DNA of 28,214 nt from a virus, in IMG/VR virus record IMGVR_UViG_3300037132_000160, positions 1 to 28,214 of that record, one strand, 5' to 3'. Each line of letters starts with the position of its first letter. The stretch's first letter is position 1. Positions 3-16,077 of this stretch are shown here, piece after piece. Position numbers and translations under genes: made by a program. The notes below the pieces were generated by a model. It was not told where the DNA came from. It did not search any database and was given only the letters and a program-made list of their open reading frames with translations.

Positions 3-677
3 GATGTCTTTGCCGTGCAAGAGGAGACTACCCTCGAGCAGTTTCTGTATCTGCTGCGGGTGAACAACTTCTCCCGCGTCCCCGTTTATTCCAGTTCCCT
101 CGACAACGTCACCGGCATCGCCTTCGCCCACGACCTTTTGCAAATCTCCGACGAGGAGGCCCACACGCGCACTGTTGCCTCTATCAAGCGCCCGGCGGTC
201 TTCGTCCCTGAAACCAAGCGCGGCTACGAGCTGCTGCGCGAGATGCAGCGCGAAAAGCAGCACATGCGCATCGTCATCGACGAGTACGGCGCCGTCGCAG
301 GCCTGGTCACCATCGAAGACCTGCTCGAACAGATCGTGGGCAACATCCGCGACGAGCACGAGGTGGACGCACCCATTGAAGACCCGCAGCGCGAGCCCGG
401 CGGCGTCTGGCTGGTTCCCGGCAGCTTTCCCGTCGACCAGTTGCCCGACCTCTTCGGCGAGCAACCCGGACTGGCCGATCTCGACGAGGCCTACGAAGCC
501 ACCACGCTCGGCGGCTTGGTCAGCGAAATCGAAGGCCGTATCCCGCTGCCCGGCGAGTTAGTCCTCCTCGAATCAGCCGGCATGAAGATCGAGATCGTCT
601 CCTCCACCGGCCGCCGCGTCGAACGCCTCCGAGTCTTTCCACCGGCGGAAGAATCCGGACCAACACCGGCTTCTTAA
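3..677 (+). CDS. CorC/HlyC-family CBS-domain protein, C-terminal part (host gene)
   Basis: Partial at the window edge: the reading frame is open from base 3, so the GTG at 15 is probably not the true start. The visible 225 codons hold the end of a CBS-domain pair (motifs SRVPVY, near IDEYGAVAGLVTIEDLLE) followed by a CorC_HlyC C-terminal domain (region from GGVWLVPGSFPVDQL to the end). Members of this family usually have an N-terminal membrane domain (DUF21/CNNM) and are linked to Mg/Co efflux; that part lies outside the window. It reads towards the prophage and stops about 20 bases before the candidate phage end, so the insertion seems to leave the coding sequence intact. This is the only clear chromosomal gene here. 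Confidence 0.9.
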   Translation, partial: DVFAVQEETTLEQFLYLLRVNNFSRVPVYSSSLDNVTGIAFAHDLLQISDEEAHTRTVASIKRPAVFVPETKRGYELLREMQREKQHMRIVIDEYGAVAGLVTIEDLLEQIVGNIRDEHEVDAPIEDPQREPGGVWLVPGSFPVDQLPDLFGEQPGLADLDEAYEATTLGGLVSEIEGRIPLPGELVLLESAGMKIEIVSSTGRRVERLRVFPPAEESGPTPAS

Positions 678-703
678 CCGCCGCACAAACCGCGGGTGTG
701 AAT

Positions 704-729
704 ACAGAAATTGTATTGCACTGGCGGCG
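704..729 (+). repeat. Candidate transposase binding site, copy 1 (outermost)
   Basis: The 26 bases match 810-835 at 22 positions. The shared core is ATTGCACTGG followed by a GG-rich tail. It lies immediately inside the proposed phage end and is the copy nearest the host junction, the position of the L1 site in Mu. The role as a binding site is inferred from repetition and position. Confidence 0.55.
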
Positions 730-762
730 TATGGGCGAATGCGGCGGCGTTGGGCGGCGTTG
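723..762 (+). repeat. Helically phased GGCGGCGT boxes
   Basis: GGCGGCGT occurs at 723-730, 743-750 and 753-760. The last two lie in a perfect tandem 10-mer (GGCGGCGTTG, 743-762). Starts are 20 and 10 bases apart, that is whole helical turns, so all boxes face the same side of the DNA. They abut the outer candidate transposase site and may be part of an extended end-binding structure. Confidence 0.5.
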
Positions 763-809
763 ACGCGGGTGAAACACGCTTTTCCACAGCTCGACGACTG
801 GAATTAAAA

Positions 810-835
810 ACAGGAATTGAATTGCACTGGTGGGG
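810..835 (+). repeat. Candidate transposase binding site, copy 2
   Basis: Direct repeat of 704-729, 106 bases further in, same orientation, 22 of 26 bases identical with core ATTGCACTGG. Mu-type ends carry two or three such sites at irregular spacing, which this resembles. Confidence 0.55.
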
Positions 836-847
836 CGATTTCGCTTA

Positions 848-894
848 GATTTCTCTCGTAAGTTGTTGAAACATCGTCGCGCGTACGAGAAATC
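848..894. repeat. Imperfect inverted repeat
   Basis: GATTTCTCTCGTA at 848-860 faces TACGAGAAATC at 884-894; the arms pair fully apart from two extra bases in the left arm, with a 23-base loop. No T-run follows on either strand, so a terminator is unlikely. It may be a protein site in the phage end. Confidence 0.4.
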
Positions 895-978
895 CAACAG
901 AACCATCCCGCAATATGAAACTAGAGCAAAATGCCACTATGGCGGTATTGTGGAAAACGCCAAAACACCGCGCCAGAT

Positions 979-995
979 GCCGCCTGAAGTGCAAT
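979..995 (-). repeat. Candidate transposase binding site, inverted third copy
   Basis: Read on the minus strand, this stretch gives ATTGCACT, three extra bases, then GGCGGC, the same two blocks as in copy 1. A looser forward copy (GC, CACT, GGCGG in order) lies at 931-950. Mu ends also include sites in opposite orientation. The match is short, so chance cannot be excluded. Confidence 0.35.
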
Positions 996-1173
996 CCAGC
1001 CCCGACGCAACTCCCCAAAAACCTCGCCGAAAACCCGCCGCCGAGCGAAATCCAGCGGAACTATGAAAAATGGTAGACCAGCCGGAAAGGAGACGCGTCC
1101 TGGGGTCGAATCCGGGCGAAAAACTGGCCGGAAATGTCCGCTTTTTCTCCCACAAATGAGTAGGATTGCAAGT

Positions 1174-1234: not shown

Positions 1235-1480
1235 TCAAAACCGCTGGTTGAGCCCGTTGCTTTTGTGGATAACTTCAATGTGCGCCATCAGTGAGTCGTA
1301 GTTGATGCGCCAGGGGCTATTGAGCTTGTCGCGGACCTTGTAGGCCTTGAGCGTGCCGTCCTCTATCATACGCGTCACCGTTTGAACTGACACGTCGAGG
1401 ATCTCCGCAGTGCGCGCCGTGGAGATAGAAAAGCGTGGGCTCCAGGGGAGAAGCAACTGATCGGGAGAGCGGAAACTCAT
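1235..1480 (-). CDS. Small helix-turn-helix DNA-binding protein (excisionase/MerR-like HTH)
   Basis: 81 aa. Residues about 18-45 (SISTARTAEILDVSVQTVTR, then an acidic-Gly turn) form an HTH_17/excisionase-type domain, followed by a basic wing-like segment and a tryptophan. The ATG at 1480 overlaps the previous stop as ATGA and has GGAGG seven bases upstream; an upstream in-frame codon at 1501 is less likely. It is the last gene of the early operon and nearest to the phage end. In Mu the last early gene encodes the middle activator Mor; a similar regulatory role here is only a positional inference, since no Mor/C fold is seen. It could equally be an accessory DNA-bending or excision-type protein. 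Confidence 0.75.
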   Translation of the reverse strand: MSFRSPDQLLLPWSPRFSISTARTAEILDVSVQTVTRMIEDGTLKAYKVRDKLNSPWRINYDSLMAHIEVIHKSNGLNQRF

Positions 1481-2007
1481 GCTGGCCTCCTCTGTTCCCA
1501 CTTACCGGCGTGTTGAAGCATACCTTTGAGCGCCCAGCGCACGCGGTTGGCGTCGGCGACGGTGGCGATCGAAGGCGCCGCCTTATGCTTGAGCGGCGAG
1601 CGCGGCGAGCGCAGCCAGGCGTCGAACTGGGCGCGCTCCCAACCGAGACGCGCATAGTAACTCTCAATGGTGGCCAGGTCAGCCGCGGAGGCGATCTGTG
1701 GGGCGCTGGCGAACTCCTGGCCATCGTGGCGCCCGTCTTTGCCGGCTCTACGCGCCTGGTCGCGGTCGAGGCGTTTGCGGGGCTTGGCGGGGGCCTTCAC
1801 GCCGAGCTGCGTCTGTATCTGGTCGATCAGCCACCCAGCGTCGTCGGCGGTCAGGTCACTAAAGCTCGACACCTCCTTACGAAGCCGCAGGGAGGCCCAG
1901 GCTATCCGCTCCTCGCGACTTAGGCCCATGCCTATCTCGTGGCGCGCGAGCTGCGCGTAGAGTGTTTGCAGCCGGCCGAGTTGTGCCTTCGTGATCTGCA
2001 TATTCAT
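1477..2007 (-). CDS. Phage protein of the GemA/DUF1018-like small regulatory type (tentative)
   Basis: 176 aa. The N-terminal 65 residues (ITKAQLGRLQTLYAQLAR at the start, later SFSDLTADDAGWLIDQIQ) follow a pattern common in small phage early proteins: a helical stretch, a basic 'REER.AW' segment, then 'S-F-x-D-L-T' before a helix. GemA-type proteins of Mu-like phages have a similar layout, but the match is from pattern memory only. The middle is basic (KPRKRLDRDQARR) and the C-terminal third contains a second helical segment (TIESYYARLGWERAQFDAWL). Starts with ATG at 2007 overlapping the previous stop (ATGA) and ends in ATGA with the next gene. Probably DNA- or RNA-associated; function unknown. 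Confidence 0.6.
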   Translation of the reverse strand: MNMQITKAQLGRLQTLYAQLARHEIGMGLSREERIAWASLRLRKEVSSFSDLTADDAGWLIDQIQTQLGVKAPAKPRKRLDRDQARRAGKDGRHDGQEFASAPQIASAADLATIESYYARLGWERAQFDAWLRSPRSPLKHKAAPSIATVADANRVRWALKGMLQHAGKWEQRRPA

Positions 2008-6811: not shown

Positions 6812-7113
6812 CGGCCACCTCCTAGCACGCGCTCGACGGCGCCGCCGGGCAGAAAAGCCGCGCCGATCTCGACAGCGAAGTAAAGAGCGGCCGCGATCAC
6901 TGCCGCCTTCGTCCAGAGATCGCAGAGCTTGTGCAGGTGCGCCGAGGGTGTCCAGACTTCCCAGAAGGCTGCCCAGCGGCGCAGACAAGCCCAACGTGTA
7001 CGCCGACGCACGCATAGGATTCTGGCGAGCGGGTACTCACGCATGGAGACTTCCAAATCTTCCGCGGACTCGATGATGAGGTTTTTGCCGGTGCCGAAAA
7101 ATAGCCTTTTCAT
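6808..7113 (-). CDS. Small protein with one membrane segment
   Basis: 101 aa. It has a basic, Trp/Arg-rich middle (VRRRTRWACLRRWAAFW) and one hydrophobic helix at about 68-89 (KAAVIAAALYFAVEIGAAFL), so it is likely anchored in the inner membrane by its C-terminal half. It directly follows the transposition ATPase gene (ATGA overlap at 7110-7113). The function is unknown; its position would suit a membrane-acting early protein such as one against superinfection, but nothing in the sequence proves this. Confidence 0.55.
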   Translation of the reverse strand: MKRLFFGTGKNLIIESAEDLEVSMREYPLARILCVRRRTRWACLRRWAAFWEVWTPSAHLHKLCDLWTKAAVIAAALYFAVEIGAAFLPGGAVERVLGGGR

Positions 7114-8072
7114 GCCACTGCCTCAACTTTCTCGGCGCTGTCGATCTGGAGGGCCAGGCCTTGGCGGATCTCGCGGATGCCGGCCATGAGACGCCCAATG
7201 CTGATGTAGCGCTGGGTCTTGCGGTCCACGCGGACGCTGATGGAGGCCAGCTCAATCTGCCGGCGAATCTCCCCGGCATCGAGCGCCATGCCGGCGAGTT
7301 CGGATTTCAAAATTCCGGCAGCTTCGTCGGCAGTGACGGCGGGCAGAGTGATTTTGTCGGAGATGCGGCGCTCAAGCTGTTCGAGCCGCCCAGCAAAGTC
7401 CGCGAAAATGCGATCCAGCTCATGGCTGCCGGCGAAGCACAGCGAGAAGCGCGGCTCCTCGTCGAGCAGTTCGCGGACAACCTCCATGCAATCGATGGAG
7501 AGATGCTGCGCTTCATCGAAGTAGAGAACCACGCGCGCCCCGCGAAAATCCCAGCGCAGATTGTGAATGGCGCGGTCGATGGCCGTGTGCGCCTCGGTTC
7601 CACAGGCGGTGGCCACGCGCTTCATTAAATCTCTGGGACAGATGCGGGCCCTGCAGTAAACGCGAAAGATGTAGGTCTTCTCTTTGGCGACACGCTGCGC
7701 GTTGTGCTGCGCAATGAGGTAGCGTGCAATGTCCGTCTTGCCCGAACCCGGCGGCGCATAGCACATGAAGATCTGCGGCCGCTCCAGCAGGCGTGTAAAA
7801 ACTGAACGCATGATCTTGACCGCGCCGGTCTCGTAAAGATTGCCGGCCCAGGCATCGGACTCCAGCGGAAAGCGGTCAACAAAATTCAGGATGGCGGCGC
7901 AGATGTGGCTGGCGTCGGTGATGTGCGCATAGCGTCCGTTGCGGAACTGTGCGAAGGTGTTCGGCGAGTAGCCGATTCTGCGCGCGAAATCCTCCGGGCT
8001 CATGCCGGATTGCGTCAGGTAATCGATGGCCAGCTTCTGCACTCTTGCCGCGCCGTGGTCTTGATCGGTCAT
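7110..8072 (-). CDS. AAA+ ATPase, transposition protein of the MuB/TnpB type
   Basis: 320 aa. Residues 20-46 form a lambda-repressor-like HTH (GMSPEDFARRIGYSPNTFAQ), as in MuB. The AAA+ core follows with Walker A APPGSGKT (106-113), Walker B VVLYFDEAQH (181-190) and a sensor region near LCFAGSHELD. In Mu, MuB binds target DNA in an ATP-dependent manner, brings it to the transposase and gives target immunity. Start ATG at 8072 overlaps the transposase stop as ATGA, so the two are co-translated. BcepMu-type versions resemble ExeA/TniB-like ATPases, and this one looks more like that group than like MuB proper. The family call is firm. Confidence 0.93.
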   Translation of the reverse strand: MTDQDHGAARVQKLAIDYLTQSGMSPEDFARRIGYSPNTFAQFRNGRYAHITDASHICAAILNFVDRFPLESDAWAGNLYETGAVKIMRSVFTRLLERPQIFMCYAPPGSGKTDIARYLIAQHNAQRVAKEKTYIFRVYCRARICPRDLMKRVATACGTEAHTAIDRAIHNLRWDFRGARVVLYFDEAQHLSIDCMEVVRELLDEEPRFSLCFAGSHELDRIFADFAGRLEQLERRISDKITLPAVTADEAAGILKSELAGMALDAGEIRRQIELASISVRVDRKTQRYISIGRLMAGIREIRQGLALQIDSAEKVEAVA

Positions 8073-9928
8073 GCTTTCCTCTCCGAAAAAAAGATGCGTG
8101 CTGCCTCAGCCGGCGTCGGTGGCCGGTCTAAGGGGTGATTGTCGGGGGACAGTTTTGCGAGGTGGGGATTGCGCTGGGTAATTACGTCAGAAATATCGGT
8201 ATCGGCTGGGAGTTGCAGCCGCCGGGCCATTTGCTCAAGCGGCGAGAGCGCGCCGTTTTGCCGCGCAACCAGGCTGATTGTGCCCAGCGCTTCGCGCGTC
8301 TGCTTTTCGAGGTGGCGGCGCTGCCTCATGCTCTCGGAGATCAGCGACTGTGTGTGCGGGTCGCTGGGCGCGAAGCGCACGAGTTCCTCGCTTTGAAGGG
8401 CGCAGATAAAGTTGCCGTCGAGATCGAGCGCGGCGGCGTCTTCCGGCGCGCCTGGCTCGTAGGCGATCAAGATGTCGCATTGATTCAGATTGTGCAGCGC
8501 GGCGAAGCCGGCCTGGTCAGCGGGCACGTAGCGGCGATTATTCAAACGAACAGCACATTCCTGAACGATTCTGCGCTCGTGCTCCGCCATGAGCAGGGCC
8601 AGCGTGGCCGGATCGGGCGCGGGGCGCTGGTTGGGGTTGAGATTGTTTTCAAAAACTTGGCGTGGTGTGCCACCGTCCATGCCAATTCCCGTGTGGGGCG
8701 AATCTGAGTATTCCTCCATCCAGGCCAGGCAGGCGGCGATGAAGACTGAAGCCTTCGGATGCTTCGACTCGGCAACGCGGCCATGGCGGGCCAGCTTGCG
8801 GTGTTCCATCATCGCGAGTGAAGTTGAATCGGGACGCGTGAAGGGGCTGCCTGTGGTGTAAGTGTTCCAGCATTTATCGAAGTGCTCGTGGACGGTGCCC
8901 CAGAAGCGCTCTATGTGCTTTGCCTGCCCGTGATACGGCGCGCAATGCGTCAAGGCAGTTCCCACCCGCGCCAGAAAGCCGGTGGCCTCGATGGACTCAA
9001 GCTCAGCCTTCCGCCAATCCTGTGGGGCCAGCGGCGAGTCCATCATGTAGCCGGGCCGCGCTCCCTTTCCCACTTTGCGATAGTCTTTTCCGTTGTCAAC
9101 GTAGACGCATTCAGGAGGGCCGTACTTCGTGATGCCGCGGCGCATGGCTGCGGCGATGGAGCGGCTGCTCCCTTCCCAGCACCAGCTCGCGCCCATCGGC
9201 ATCCGTGAGCGATAGTCCAGCCATGCTGTGAGCCGTATGCGGACCGGCGAACCCCACTCGACATTAGCAAAGCAATCGTTCGCGCACTCGACGTCGTGGA
9301 TCATGTGATCCCCAACCCAGACGGCGTTGGCGTACACATCCGTGAAGCCGCGCGTCAGGTAGGGGCTCATGCGTTCCTGATATGCCTTTCGGCCTTCACG
9401 GGCGTAAACAACGAGCGACGGCGGCATGGATTTCAGCCATGCGCGCACGGTTTCGTACGAAGGCAACGCGTCGACAGGAATCTCGATCATCGCGTGATCG
9501 CGGACAATGGCTTCGTGGCAGACGCGGCAGGACATGCGCTGATCCAAAAAAAGGTAGGCTGAGAGCCAAGCTGCCTTCGGGTAGGATTCAAAAAAGCGGG
9601 AAGTATTCTTGTCGCGCCGAGGTTTATCCGCCAAAGCCGCGAAGCCGCCTGCCTTGTGCGCGCGCAGCCAGTTGTAGAGCGTGCCGCGGGAAATGCCGTT
9701 TGTCTCTGCGGCAAACTCGACCATCCTGGATGCGCTCGTGATCGGTGTCCCATCTCTCAATTGCAGACGGCCAAAACGCGCAGGATCGCGTTGGTATTCG
9801 AGAATCTGCTGAACTACGGAAAGCCGCTGGGAGGCTTGCTCCTGGTCTCGCGGCGAAGGCAGCAAGACACGCTGCGGAGCGGCCACGGGAAAAGGAATTG
9901 CCAAAGGGATCGCCAATTGAGTGCTCAC
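8069..9928 (-). CDS. DDE transposase, MuA role (Tn552/IS481-like integrase core)
   Basis: 619 aa. An HTH lies at about 75-100 (ISRGTLYNWLRAHKAGG). The RNase H-like core has D207 (WVGDHMIHD), D278 (VYVDNGKDYR) and E340 (GQAKHIERFWGTVHEHF), with 61 residues between the second Asp and the Glu; this is the catalytic triad for strand cutting and joining. After the core comes a MuA-like C-terminal beta-barrel (NNRRYVPADQAGF, DILIAYEPG) and a C-terminal helical tail that could contact the ATPase. GTG at 9928 overlaps the J-domain gene stop (GTGA). It carries out replicative transposition and integration of the phage and should recognise the repeats near 704-995. Confidence 0.95.
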   Translation of the reverse strand: MSTQLAIPLAIPFPVAAPQRVLLPSPRDQEQASQRLSVVQQILEYQRDPARFGRLQLRDGTPITSASRMVEFAAETNGISRGTLYNWLRAHKAGGFAALADKPRRDKNTSRFFESYPKAAWLSAYLFLDQRMSCRVCHEAIVRDHAMIEIPVDALPSYETVRAWLKSMPPSLVVYAREGRKAYQERMSPYLTRGFTDVYANAVWVGDHMIHDVECANDCFANVEWGSPVRIRLTAWLDYRSRMPMGASWCWEGSSRSIAAAMRRGITKYGPPECVYVDNGKDYRKVGKGARPGYMMDSPLAPQDWRKAELESIEATGFLARVGTALTHCAPYHGQAKHIERFWGTVHEHFDKCWNTYTTGSPFTRPDSTSLAMMEHRKLARHGRVAESKHPKASVFIAACLAWMEEYSDSPHTGIGMDGGTPRQVFENNLNPNQRPAPDPATLALLMAEHERRIVQECAVRLNNRRYVPADQAGFAALHNLNQCDILIAYEPGAPEDAAALDLDGNFICALQSEELVRFAPSDPHTQSLISESMRQRRHLEKQTREALGTISLVARQNGALSPLEQMARRLQLPADTDISDVITQRNPHLAKLSPDNHPLDRPPTPAEAARIFFSERKA

Positions 9929-10557
9929 TGGCTCACCTCGGCGAGAGCTTCTGTCCGAGCCCTGTTCAGCTCGCTCATGGCTTCATTGCTTCCGCCGCGA
10001 TCTGGGTGACGGTCATTGGCGAGCGAGCGGAAGTTAGCCTCGATCACCGCTCTGGATGCATCTCTCCGCACTCCAAGCACATCCCACCAATCGCGTTCGG
10101 TCTTGGCCGGCAACGCCGCAAAACCTCGGAAGGTGCGCTCCTGCACCTGTGCTCCGCCATGGCGCTCGATGGCGCGCATGGCCTCCAGGGTGGCCGCCAC
10201 GGCCGCCAGGTTGTCCGCAACAGATTTGTATATGTCGATAGCCATGCACTGCATTGGCGCGTTCTGGCTCTTGCGCCAGTAAACGGCGGCTCCAGGGTCG
10301 GATGGTTCTCGCTGGTCGGAGCGAGGCATACCGTCCAGGCGCGTCGGCACATTGGTGGAGATGAGCACATCGTCGCGGCTGATCTTCATGGAGGCAAGTT
10401 GCTGGAGGGTTCGCTGAATTCCATCCATAACCGAAACGCCGTGCCGGGCTGTCTTGAAGTGCCCATTTTTGCGGGTGTCGCTTGCAGCGCGTCCCCAGCC
10501 GTCAGGCCAGCAGAGCGGATAATTTGTCAATGAAAAACGGCGATTCTCAGTTTTCAA
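9925..10557 (-). CDS. Phage J-domain (DnaJ-like) protein
   Basis: 210 aa. The C-terminal residues 156-207 form a J domain: DWWDVLGVRRDASRAVIEA, with the HPD motif at 184-186 in RHPDRGGS, then a helix. The N-terminus has NYPLCWPDGW, a pattern seen at the start of similar phage J proteins, followed by a helical region of unknown role. A J domain recruits and stimulates DnaK, so the protein probably links the host Hsp70 system to a phage complex. It sits between a membrane enzyme gene and the transposase, and overlaps both by four bases. Transposase-DNA complexes of Mu are taken apart by the chaperone ClpX; use of DnaK for a similar step is only a hypothesis. Confidence 0.85.
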   Translation of the reverse strand: MKTENRRFSLTNYPLCWPDGWGRAASDTRKNGHFKTARHGVSVMDGIQRTLQQLASMKISRDDVLISTNVPTRLDGMPRSDQREPSDPGAAVYWRKSQNAPMQCMAIDIYKSVADNLAAVAATLEAMRAIERHGGAQVQERTFRGFAALPAKTERDWWDVLGVRRDASRAVIEANFRSLANDRHPDRGGSNEAMSELNRARTEALAEVSQ

Positions 10558-11539: not shown

Positions 11540-11760
11540 GCCGCCTTCTTATGGAGAACTTTTTCTATGAGTGAAATTTCCCGGCGGACGGCTTTGTGGA
11601 CTCTGGCCGAGATGGACTGCCCTTTAATCACGCGGCAGACGAAAGAGAGGCTCACCTGGAGCTTTCGGGCGACCCTGGTCGGCAAACCACGGTAAAAAAG
11701 CGCTCGTGCAATCGGCGCTGGCTTCGTGCTACGCTTCGACTGGTACACAGACTGAACCAT
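11536..11760 (-). CDS. Small HTH protein, Cro/Ner-like position
   Basis: 74 aa. Residues about 29-47 (RVARKLQVSLSFVCRVIKG) look like a helix-turn-helix, in a basic protein with a flexible N-terminus. It is the first gene of the leftward operon, transcribed from a promoter whose -10 lies only nine bases before the ATG, so the message would be nearly leaderless and no ribosome site is visible. In Mu the first early gene is ner, a small negative regulator that opposes the repressor; the same place and fold suggest a similar role here, but this is by position. The start could also lie further in at a GTG. Confidence 0.68.
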   Translation of the reverse strand: MVQSVYQSKRSTKPAPIARALFYRGLPTRVARKLQVSLSFVCRVIKGQSISARVHKAVRREISLIEKVLHKKAA

Positions 11761-11790
11761 ACAGCATAAGATATACAGCGCCGCTGTATA
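11759..11790. promoter_or_regulatory. Operator: perfect palindrome with an extra half-site
   Basis: TATACAGCG (11772-11780), a single C, and CGCTGTATA (11782-11790) form a perfect 9+1+9 palindrome. A further ATACAGC half-site lies at 11759-11765, fourteen bases from the matching part of the palindrome. The site sits between the divergent repressor and early genes, where a lysogeny repressor should bind. The binding protein is inferred to be the S24 repressor and/or the small HTH protein. Confidence 0.75.
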
Positions 11791-11798
11791 CGTGTCAA
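11770..11798 (-). promoter_or_regulatory. Early leftward promoter
   Basis: On the minus strand, TTGACA (11798-11793), a 17-base spacer and TATATC (11775-11770) make a near-consensus sigma-70 promoter. The palindromic operator fills the spacer and overlaps the -10 box, so repressor binding would block RNA polymerase directly. Transcription should begin around 11763. Confidence 0.7.
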
Positions 11799-11807
11799 GT
11801 CTTTTTT

Positions 11808-12497
11808 ATGACCACATCGACTCGCCTAGATTCCGAAGCTGCCGACCACATCACGAAGTGGAGGCAAACCCTTGGAATAAAGCGGCTTGAGGCCAGCAAG
11901 CTCCTCGGGGTGACAAAACAGGCAGTCTCAAATTGGGAACTAAGCGTTAATGAGCCCAGGAAGGAAATATATGCGCGCATGGCTGAACGGAGTTCAGGCA
12001 GCGAAAAGCAGTGGTTTCTTTCAAAAATAGGTCTCTCGATCAATGATGCAGAGGCACTCGCCGGAACCGCTGCCCCAATCGTTCCGGATGGAGAAGGCAT
12101 CGAAATCAAAGTATTTAAGTCTGCCGGTGCTGGGTCTTTTCGCTCGGTGGACGACATCCCCGATCACAGCGTAATTTTCCCGCGTCAGTGGTTGCCCACA
12201 ACTCAAAAGTTGGTTGGATTGGTGGTCGAAGGGGATTCGATGTCGCCGCTCATTGAGACGGGCTTCATCGTCATCGTGGACAGGACAAAGAAATCGAAGG
12301 CTGCTGCACTGAATCACATTGTCGCCGTGGGCGATGGAGATGGCGTAGCGATAAGATGGCTGCTGGAGATTGATGGTGATCTCTTGCTCCAACCGCATAA
12401 TAGGAATATCGAGAATCGAGCTGTCCCGGTAAGACCTGACACGCGGATCATCGGGGTTGTGATCAAGTGGATTGGCCAGCCGCCGGTCAGAAAGTGA
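11808..12497 (+). CDS. S24/LexA-type phage repressor
   Basis: 229 aa. The N-terminal XRE-type HTH covers about 13-50 (LEASKLLGVTKQAVSNWELS). The C-terminal S24 domain begins at SAGAGS (105-110), has GDSMSP with the nucleophile Ser144, and ends with IIGVVIKW. The Lys that normally pairs with the Ser is Arg183 here (VAIRWL, aligned with TFKKL of lambda CI), so self-cleavage may be lost or altered. The ATG at 11808 is used because upstream codons would run through the operator; no ribosome site is visible before it. It should bind the adjacent palindrome to keep the early operon off. Divergent placement supports this. Confidence 0.9.
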   Translation: MTTSTRLDSEAADHITKWRQTLGIKRLEASKLLGVTKQAVSNWELSVNEPRKEIYARMAERSSGSEKQWFLSKIGLSINDAEALAGTAAPIVPDGEGIEIKVFKSAGAGSFRSVDDIPDHSVIFPRQWLPTTQKLVGLVVEGDSMSPLIETGFIVIVDRTKKSKAAALNHIVAVGDGDGVAIRWLLEIDGDLLLQPHNRNIENRAVPVRPDTRIIGVVIKWIGQPPVRK

Positions 12498-14245: not shown

Positions 14246-14616
14246 TGCGCACCTTGATTCTCATCTCGCTCTTGGTGGTTTTGGCGGCCGTGGGCCATGC
14301 GCAGGTTCCGCTGGCGCAGCAATCAACTGCGGCGCTCCAGGATCGCTACGAGGCGTTGCAGACTGCGTTCGAGCAGACATACGATCCGGTGAAAGGAGAC
14401 GCAATTCTTGCCGAGCAGGAACCAATCAGCGAGGAACTTACACGCCGCAACTTATCGCGGGTACACGCTACCTCGGCTTCTCTGGAGACTGGAATCGTCT
14501 TGTTCGCGCAGCACCAGGACGTAACTGACAAGGCCGCGGCCCGCGCGAAATGGTGCCATCAAACTCCATGGCGGTTGATCCGCAGGTATCACGAGCCGCA
14601 GTGGTGTCGGGAATGA
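14242..14616 (+). CDS. Exported or membrane-anchored small protein (unknown)
   Basis: 124 aa. The N-terminus is a clear signal peptide or anchor (MMRTLILISLLVVLAAVGHAQ, likely cut after HA). A helical segment follows (ALQDRYEALQTAFEQTY), then a polar region and a Trp/Arg-rich tail with two cysteines (KWCHQTPWRLIRR, PQWCRE). It directly follows the lysozyme with a four-base overlap, the place where spanins often lie, and an anchored helix facing the periplasm is the layout of an inner-membrane spanin. The tail is unusual for that class, so the spanin reading is only a possibility. Confidence 0.55.
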   Translation: MMRTLILISLLVVLAAVGHAQVPLAQQSTAALQDRYEALQTAFEQTYDPVKGDAILAEQEPISEELTRRNLSRVHATSASLETGIVLFAQHQDVTDKAAARAKWCHQTPWRLIRRYHEPQWCRE

Positions 14617-14795
14617 CGCGCTACAAGCTCATACCGCCATTTCCGCACGGTGGTGAGGCCTGGTGGCTGATCGCCGACACCGAATCGAAGCATGAACCAA
14701 ACTTTGCGGTGGTGCAGATATTCGAGTGGCTGCCCAACGCCAAGGACATCGCGACTAAGATCTGCGCCGCGCTCAACGCGGGGCAAAGCATTTAA
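14613..14795 (+). CDS. Small hypothetical protein
   Basis: 60 aa, starting at the ATG at 14613 that overlaps the preceding stop as ATGA; a longer frame back to 14550 would lie inside the preceding gene. It has a Trp-rich centre (GGEAWWLIADTES) and a short helix at the end (DIATKICAALNAG), like small phage proteins with a single alpha/beta unit. No function is recognised. Confidence 0.5.
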   Translation: MTRYKLIPPFPHGGEAWWLIADTESKHEPNFAVVQIFEWLPNAKDIATKICAALNAGQSI

Positions 14796-15740: not shown

Positions 15741-15768
15741 AGGCATCACACTCAGGGGAGCACCAATG

Positions 15769-15804
15769 ACCTGCCGCCGGGATCAACCAGTCCCGGCGGC
15801 AGGT
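15769..15804 (+). terminator. Strong hairpin, 14-bp perfect stem, no U-tract
   Basis: ACCTGCCGCCGGGA (15769-15782) and its exact complement (15791-15804) form a 14-pair GC-rich stem with an eight-base loop. The next bases are AGCGAAAAAG, so it lacks the T-run of a classical terminator on this strand. It lies between paralogues A and B. It may be a 3'-end protecting or pausing structure, or a Rho-type or processing site. Confidence 0.6.
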
Positions 15805-15825
15805 AGCGAAAAAGAGGCCACGCGG

Positions 15826-16077
15826 ATGGCGGTACGCGTCACATTCAGTTCGATCACGCTGATGAGATACCATGCGGTCCGCGCACGCATCCGGGCGCAA
15901 TCTGAGAAGACGAACTGTGTAGGCAATACGGGAACGGCGACGGGCGACGGAATCACCATCGCATGGACCTACGACGAAGACGCGCAGAAATTGGCGTTCA
16001 CCTGCCCAAAGCGGCCCTGGTACAAGACTGAGGGCTTTGTGGGCAGCAAGATTTTAGGTCTGATGGAGGCGTTATGA
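15826..16077 (+). CDS. Small hypothetical protein, paralogue B
   Basis: 83 aa from the ATG at 15826, which has GAGG eight bases upstream; a longer frame from 15766 would translate the hairpin at 15769-15804 and is not favoured. The shared layout with the preceding gene is GNTGTATGDGITIAW, then D-x4-KL and a C-terminal helix (FVGSKILGLMEAL). It overlaps the nuclease gene as ATGA. The N-terminus is basic (VRARIRAQ). The function is unknown; tandem duplication followed by divergence is the simplest reading of the pair. Confidence 0.5.
   Translation: MAVRVTFSSITLMRYHAVRARIRAQSEKTNCVGNTGTATGDGITIAWTYDEDAQKLAFTCPKRPWYKTEGFVGSKILGLMEAL

Follow-up and report, generated by a model that had tools for sequence, protein, structure and literature searches.

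Phage Mu and its relatives are known for ends that run from TG to CA, for several transposase sites at each end and for duplicating 5 bp of the target (PMC3362531, PMC4378225, PMC8705779). The D3112-type phages carry three 22-bp sites at each end and TGT termini (PMC4378225), the B3 and Tn552-like phages are associated with a 6-bp duplication and, in some cases, TA ends (PMC8705779), and phage KS10 was described with 15-nt sites, no TG..CA ends and no reported duplication (PMC2628397). The left end of Mu has an HU site, and its operator/enhancer has an IHF site (PMC3820752). A literature search of open-access papers returned no transposable phages of Acidobacteria.

The window analysed here, an entire IMG/VR record of 28,214 bases, stops within the phage and is therefore without a right end, so that the right terminus had to be taken from related phages. 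The top homologues of its host-flank gene [Table 1] are found in genomes of the class of an Acidobacteriales metagenome-assembled genome (MAG), and soil Acidobacteria are the most likely host. These homologues are just 74-81% identical in protein, as a result of which the intergenic join could not be aligned for an empty-site comparison. Taken as a whole, the explanation in which we place high confidence, based on sequence comparisons, is that the left end of a Mu-like transposable prophage begins with base 697, that the prophage is inserted directly 3' of the host CorC/HlyC-type gene, and that L1 and L2 are binding sites of its own transposase.

Table 1. Features of the left end, host flank and relevant phage genes, in window coordinates; binding sites are predicted
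Feature	Position	Strand	Basis or remark
Host flank, 3' part of CorC/HlyC-type CBS-domain gene	15..677	+	Pfam CBS, CorC_HlyC
Predicted left copy of the 5-bp target duplication, GCGGG	692..696	.	Extrapolated from 15 related insertions
Left terminus TGTG with site L1 (TGTGAATACAGAAATTGTATTGCACTGG)	697..724	+	L008/L019 similarity begins at 696/697; layout same as R1
L1 core (ATTGCACT), core base 3 at 717	715..722	+	Varies between phages in step with transposase residue 86
L1-L2 spacer, G-rich blocks	726..769	+	Relatives have GGG at 10-bp intervals (+30/40/50/60/71); window version degenerate
Conserved element CGCGGGT-N-TTTTCCACA	766..788	+	TTTTCCACA itself at 780-788, +84
Site L2 (ATTAAAAACAGGAATTGAATTGCACTGG), 106 bp from L1	803..830	+	Spacing of 106 in 15/24 left ends
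Putative IHF-like site TAAGTTGTTGAAA	859..871	+	+163; single mismatch to YAANNNNTTGATW
Second repeat family, copy 1 (GAAATCCAACAGAACCAT)	889..906	+	Repeat comparison
Inverted TTTTCCACA element	949..957	-	Most relatives have it at about +235 to +253
Second repeat family, copy 2 (GAAATCCAGCGGAACTAT)	1047..1064	+	Repeat comparison
Small HTH_17 protein, last gene of leftward operon	1235..1501	-	Excisionase/Cox-like match
MuB-like AAA ATPase (DNA transposition protein)	7110..8072	-	AAA_22, phrog_296; adjoins transposase gene
DDE transposase, 619 aa, D207/D278/E340	8069..9928	-	Domain/PHROG matches; fold match
Helix-turn-helix, residues 66-99	9632..9733	-	N86 coded at 9671-9673
S24 repressor	11706-12497		

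The original prediction had set the left end at or near the TG at 697 and drawn attention to two 26-base direct repeats, and both proposals were upheld. The repeats (704-729 and 810-835) are identical at 22 of 26 positions, the optimal repeat unit being 27 nt in length (701-727 and 807-833, offset 106 bp). A degenerate 21-mer consensus matched just these two places in the window and had no match in 100 shuffles; ATTGCACTGG likewise occurs exactly twice within the window. Querying viral contigs with the transposase yielded 25 loci; three scans of such contigs, each with a single protein, contributed few new phages or none. Two relatives, L008 and L019, encode transposases that are 92% identical to that of the window in different surrounding DNA; their similarity to the window extends from 696/697 inward with none outside, and no contradicting junction was encountered. 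Both retain L1 and L2, with much of the intervening spacer divergent. The wider array of sites that had been proposed stood only as far as these two repeats, further copies at 979-995 and 931-950 falling below the cut-off of the site profile. The former does contain ATTGCACT and GGCGGC inverted as letters, yet its match is limited to the 8-base core, and the closest relative has GAAGCGCTATCC in its place; both copies probably arose by chance or are left over from a different repeat family. No Mu-style L3 was found in the window.

The 5'-TG...CA-3' termini are formed by the left end in the window and the right end in relatives, and the sites are inverted between the two ends (L1 and L2 in the window; R1, R2 and R3 in relatives). 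A right end is present in G003 (the record of L005), whose transposase is also 92% identical to that of the window and which runs out into host sequence. In the inward direction, this end consists of CCGTGC followed by TGTGGCTGCAGCCGTTTGATTGCACTG and then AATACAGGAATTAGATTGCACTGG. The right end of L008's phage reads TGTGGCTGCAGCCGTTTGATTGCACTG|AATACAGGAATTAGATTGCACTGG and has two copies of the site, inverted and in tandem, the outer one at the same distance from the terminus as L1. At R1, the distance from TGTG to ATTGCACTG equals that in L1, R2 follows 23 bp further in, and R3 is inverted, standing head to head with R2 in several relatives. Inverted copies of the motif thus lie near the right terminus, within 60 bp of it in the closest relatives, as anticipated for ATTGCACTGG as a site core. 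The ends of G001, G404, G145 and about a dozen further viral records were not found. We note that in L040, a close relative of the window, some 170 bp are duplicated (14580-14770 and 15765-15935) in the cargo region adjoining the right end.

The 5-base target duplication that was also anticipated is present for 15 insertions of relatives, to which come one weak case (G398) and one exception (G034). The total is made up of six in-record pairs, G063, the assembly pairs G006/G003 and G019/G018, and six prophages from genomes of the Acidobacteriales MAG's class, in whose selection the 5-mer itself was a criterion. The in-record pairs were identified among 33 records, which were screened automatically for two termini flanked by a 5-bp duplication; swapping records as a control gave 28 matches in 1056 pairs (0.03 per pair), or about 0.9 expected against the six found. 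In the six firm prophages, the chosen pair of termini scored 41-50 and the runner-up 31-36. The length of the duplication was exactly 5 in all eight pairs checked. The left flank of G006 ends in GCACG immediately before TGTG and the right flank of G003 begins with GCACG immediately after CACA, a 5-bp duplication indicating that both records show the same insertion. Flanks and duplicated 5-mers vary between relatives, showing insertion at many unrelated places, and the left flank of the window predicts GCGGG as the duplicated target of its own insertion. The exception, G034 (L159 / L158), has clear sites at both ends and flanks (GAGGC and GGCAG) that form no 5-bp duplication, perhaps as a result of chimeric assembly or later rearrangement. 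G398 (L233 / L262-L263), the weakest inferred insertion, has Gln at residue 86 and apparent TGGG rather than TGTG termini.

The transposase of the window matches Mu-transpos_C above and rve below the cut-off, as well as the transposase family phrog_310, and D207, D278 and E340 are invariant. The Mu transpososome (4fcy) is the top match to its predicted fold (model pLDDT 69.8), and a search of the PDB by sequence gave no matches. Head genes of the phage are of the Mu type (Portal_Mu, minor head protein, major head protein). Directly upstream of the transposase gene lies a small gene (9925-10557) with a J-domain match.

That this transposase would be the protein reading the sites, as originally proposed, is supported by the co-variation of the site core with residue 86 of its helix-turn-helix. 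The core differs among phages (TTGCACT, TTACAGT, TGAGAGT, TGTCACT and others), and core distances track the helix-turn-helix segment best (residues 60-105; Mantel r 0.57 versus 0.44 for the catalytic segment). In a scan of all protein columns, N86, located within the recognition helix (81-99 in the structure model), came first for core position 3 (U=1.0, z=12.3), as it did for position 2. Among 31 phages, Arg86 is accompanied by G at core base 3 in 16 of 16 cases; where residue 86 is not Arg (n=15), the base is T in 13 phages, C in one and G in one (Ser), and thus not G in 14 of 15 (Fisher p 6e-8, a value that assumes independent phages, which they are not). Eight cases examined after the rule was written, bearing Arg, Asn or Leu, all fit it (L105, L084, L181, L186, L229, L230, L231 and L232), the site of L105 being already known at the time of prediction. 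Through this tracking of core base 3 by residue 86, the motif is linked to the transposase encoded at 8069-9928.

Measured from the TG, elements of the left end keep constant positions, with GGG blocks from +30 to +71, TTTTCCACA at +84, L2 at +107 and the IHF-like site at about +163. In the left ends of relatives, GGG at 10-bp spacing was counted 44 times versus 10.5 in shuffles; the phasing is a strict 10 bp in the L1-L2 spacer of most relatives, and Mu and B3 have a partial version of it. TTTTCCACA is present in this stretch in 15 of 24 left ends and was absent from shuffles, and the TTTTCCACA pair of G019 forms a perfect 27-bp inverted repeat (arms +68-94 and +236-262). By letter, TTTTCCACA resembles a DnaA box, an identity that gained no support from the Acidobacteriales MAG, in which the 3.5 kb around dnaA contain no TTWTNCACA, although its origin could be located at another place. 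An exact IHF consensus near +163 occurs in 11 of 24 related left ends as opposed to 0.0004 times per shuffle. The variable half of the second repeat family (AATCCAACGGAACT type) differs from phage to phage, and in relatives a 12-14-bp inverted pair of this family flanks the IHF-like site, such that these repeats are possible enhancer or operator sites of some protein. Conservation of the left-end elements is partly due to shared descent. In light of the HU and IHF sites of Mu, the natural reading would be a spacer that bends between the two L sites and a putative enhancer adjacent to L2. The combined proposal that residue 86 sets core base 3 (Arg specifying G; Asn, Leu and others specifying T), with several lineages switching both, and that the left-end assembly is an enhancer by L2 is one that we consider possible and put forward tentatively.

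The location of L1 and L2 could alternatively reflect operators of a phage regulator that merely happen to lie near the end. The window does encode such regulators, the S24 repressor and the HTH_17 protein, and the second repeat family at the left end could itself represent operators. We nonetheless regard this reading of L1 and L2 as very improbable: L1 and R1 are flush with the two termini, inverted and at constant distances, with R2 in tandem; core sequences change together with the helix-turn-helix of the transposase; and the remainder of the window, including the early promoter region, has no match to the consensus. We attach equally little credence to a terminus two bases further inward, at the TG at 699 (TGAATACAG); whereas a TG does start there and R2 reads TGAATACAGG, R1 has TGTG at the L1 distance, right ends read TGTGGC and the duplications fit solely with TGTG as the end. 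As to a chance or host-derived duplication giving rise to the two repeats with no phage end involved, the G-rich surroundings and nothing further would speak for it, and the absence of matches in 100 shuffles, the recurrence of the repeats at the same place in relatives with other surroundings and their inversion at the right end render it scarcely credible.

Shared ancestry, rather than contact, could also account for the link between residue 86 and core base 3. Each of the two changes four times on the tree, and the resulting three to four independent pairs leave the test underpowered (p 0.25, not significant alone), which agrees with such a scenario. Every independent pair is concordant, however, the N86 column emerged from an unbiased scan and falls in the recognition helix, and T-type cores recur with Asn or Leu in separate clades, so that we consider ancestry an unlikely explanation. 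With independent pairs too few for significance, a direct contact of residue 86 with core base 3 is likely rather than demonstrated.

If L1 and L2 are indeed sites of the phage's own DDE transposase, this enzyme would bind them as well as the inverted R1 and R2 (and R3). Bending of the spacer would probably bring L1 close to L2, whereas R1 and R2 lie in tandem. The transposase would then nick each strand 3' of the terminal CA, and the ends would be joined to the target with a 5-bp stagger with the assistance of the MuB-like ATPase. Growth of the phage would presumably be replicative.

Compared with described transposable phages, the D3112-type Pseudomonas phages (DMS3, MP29, PaMx73) have a transposase about 22% identical to that of the window, and their inverted site is R1 as opposed to R3 here. 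The left end of D3112 has no ATTGCACT motif, no TTTTCCACA and no IHF consensus, and none of the left ends of D3112, BalMu-1 and B3 contains the site motif. The B3 and Tn552-like phages, including Leptospira prophages, are likewise transposable, with flanking duplications and TG-CA ends, and B3 shares GGG blocks about 10 bp apart; the eight pairs checked here have duplications of exactly 5 bp, unlike the 6 bp of this branch. Burkholderia phage KS10 has a Mu-like transposase (24% identical) and two proposed sites per end.

The likeness to Mu includes the TG-CA termini, several sites per end, the MuA fold, Mu-type head genes and the 5-bp stagger (PMC3362531). Applying the MuA consensus to the Mu sequence placed L1 at 4, L2 at 109, R1 at 4 and R2 at 26, with R3 inverted, which equates to an L1-L2 distance of 105 (106 here) and an R1-R2 distance of 22 (23 in most right ends here); R3 is inverted in both systems. 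In contrast to Mu, the early operon here is transcribed leftward as far as the left end, the repressor gene lying 11 kb inside, and IHF-like and operator-like elements are found right beside L2; the Mu enhancer, which is bound by the N-terminus of the transposase, lies about 1 kb inside from the end. The site sequence is also unrelated to that of Mu. Mu-like transposition itself is known; to our knowledge of the open-access literature, neither the motif and its turnover nor the residue-86 rule has been described before. An apparently uncharacterised branch of Mu-like transposases thereby gains a terminus, a predicted binding motif and a rule, open to testing, that relates residue to base, and the motif may be used for calling prophage ends in Acidobacteria genomes and metagenomes. 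This branch retains the end geometry of Mu, with an L1-L2 distance of about 105 bp, tandem R1 and R2 and an inverted R3, while the recognition sequence turns over.
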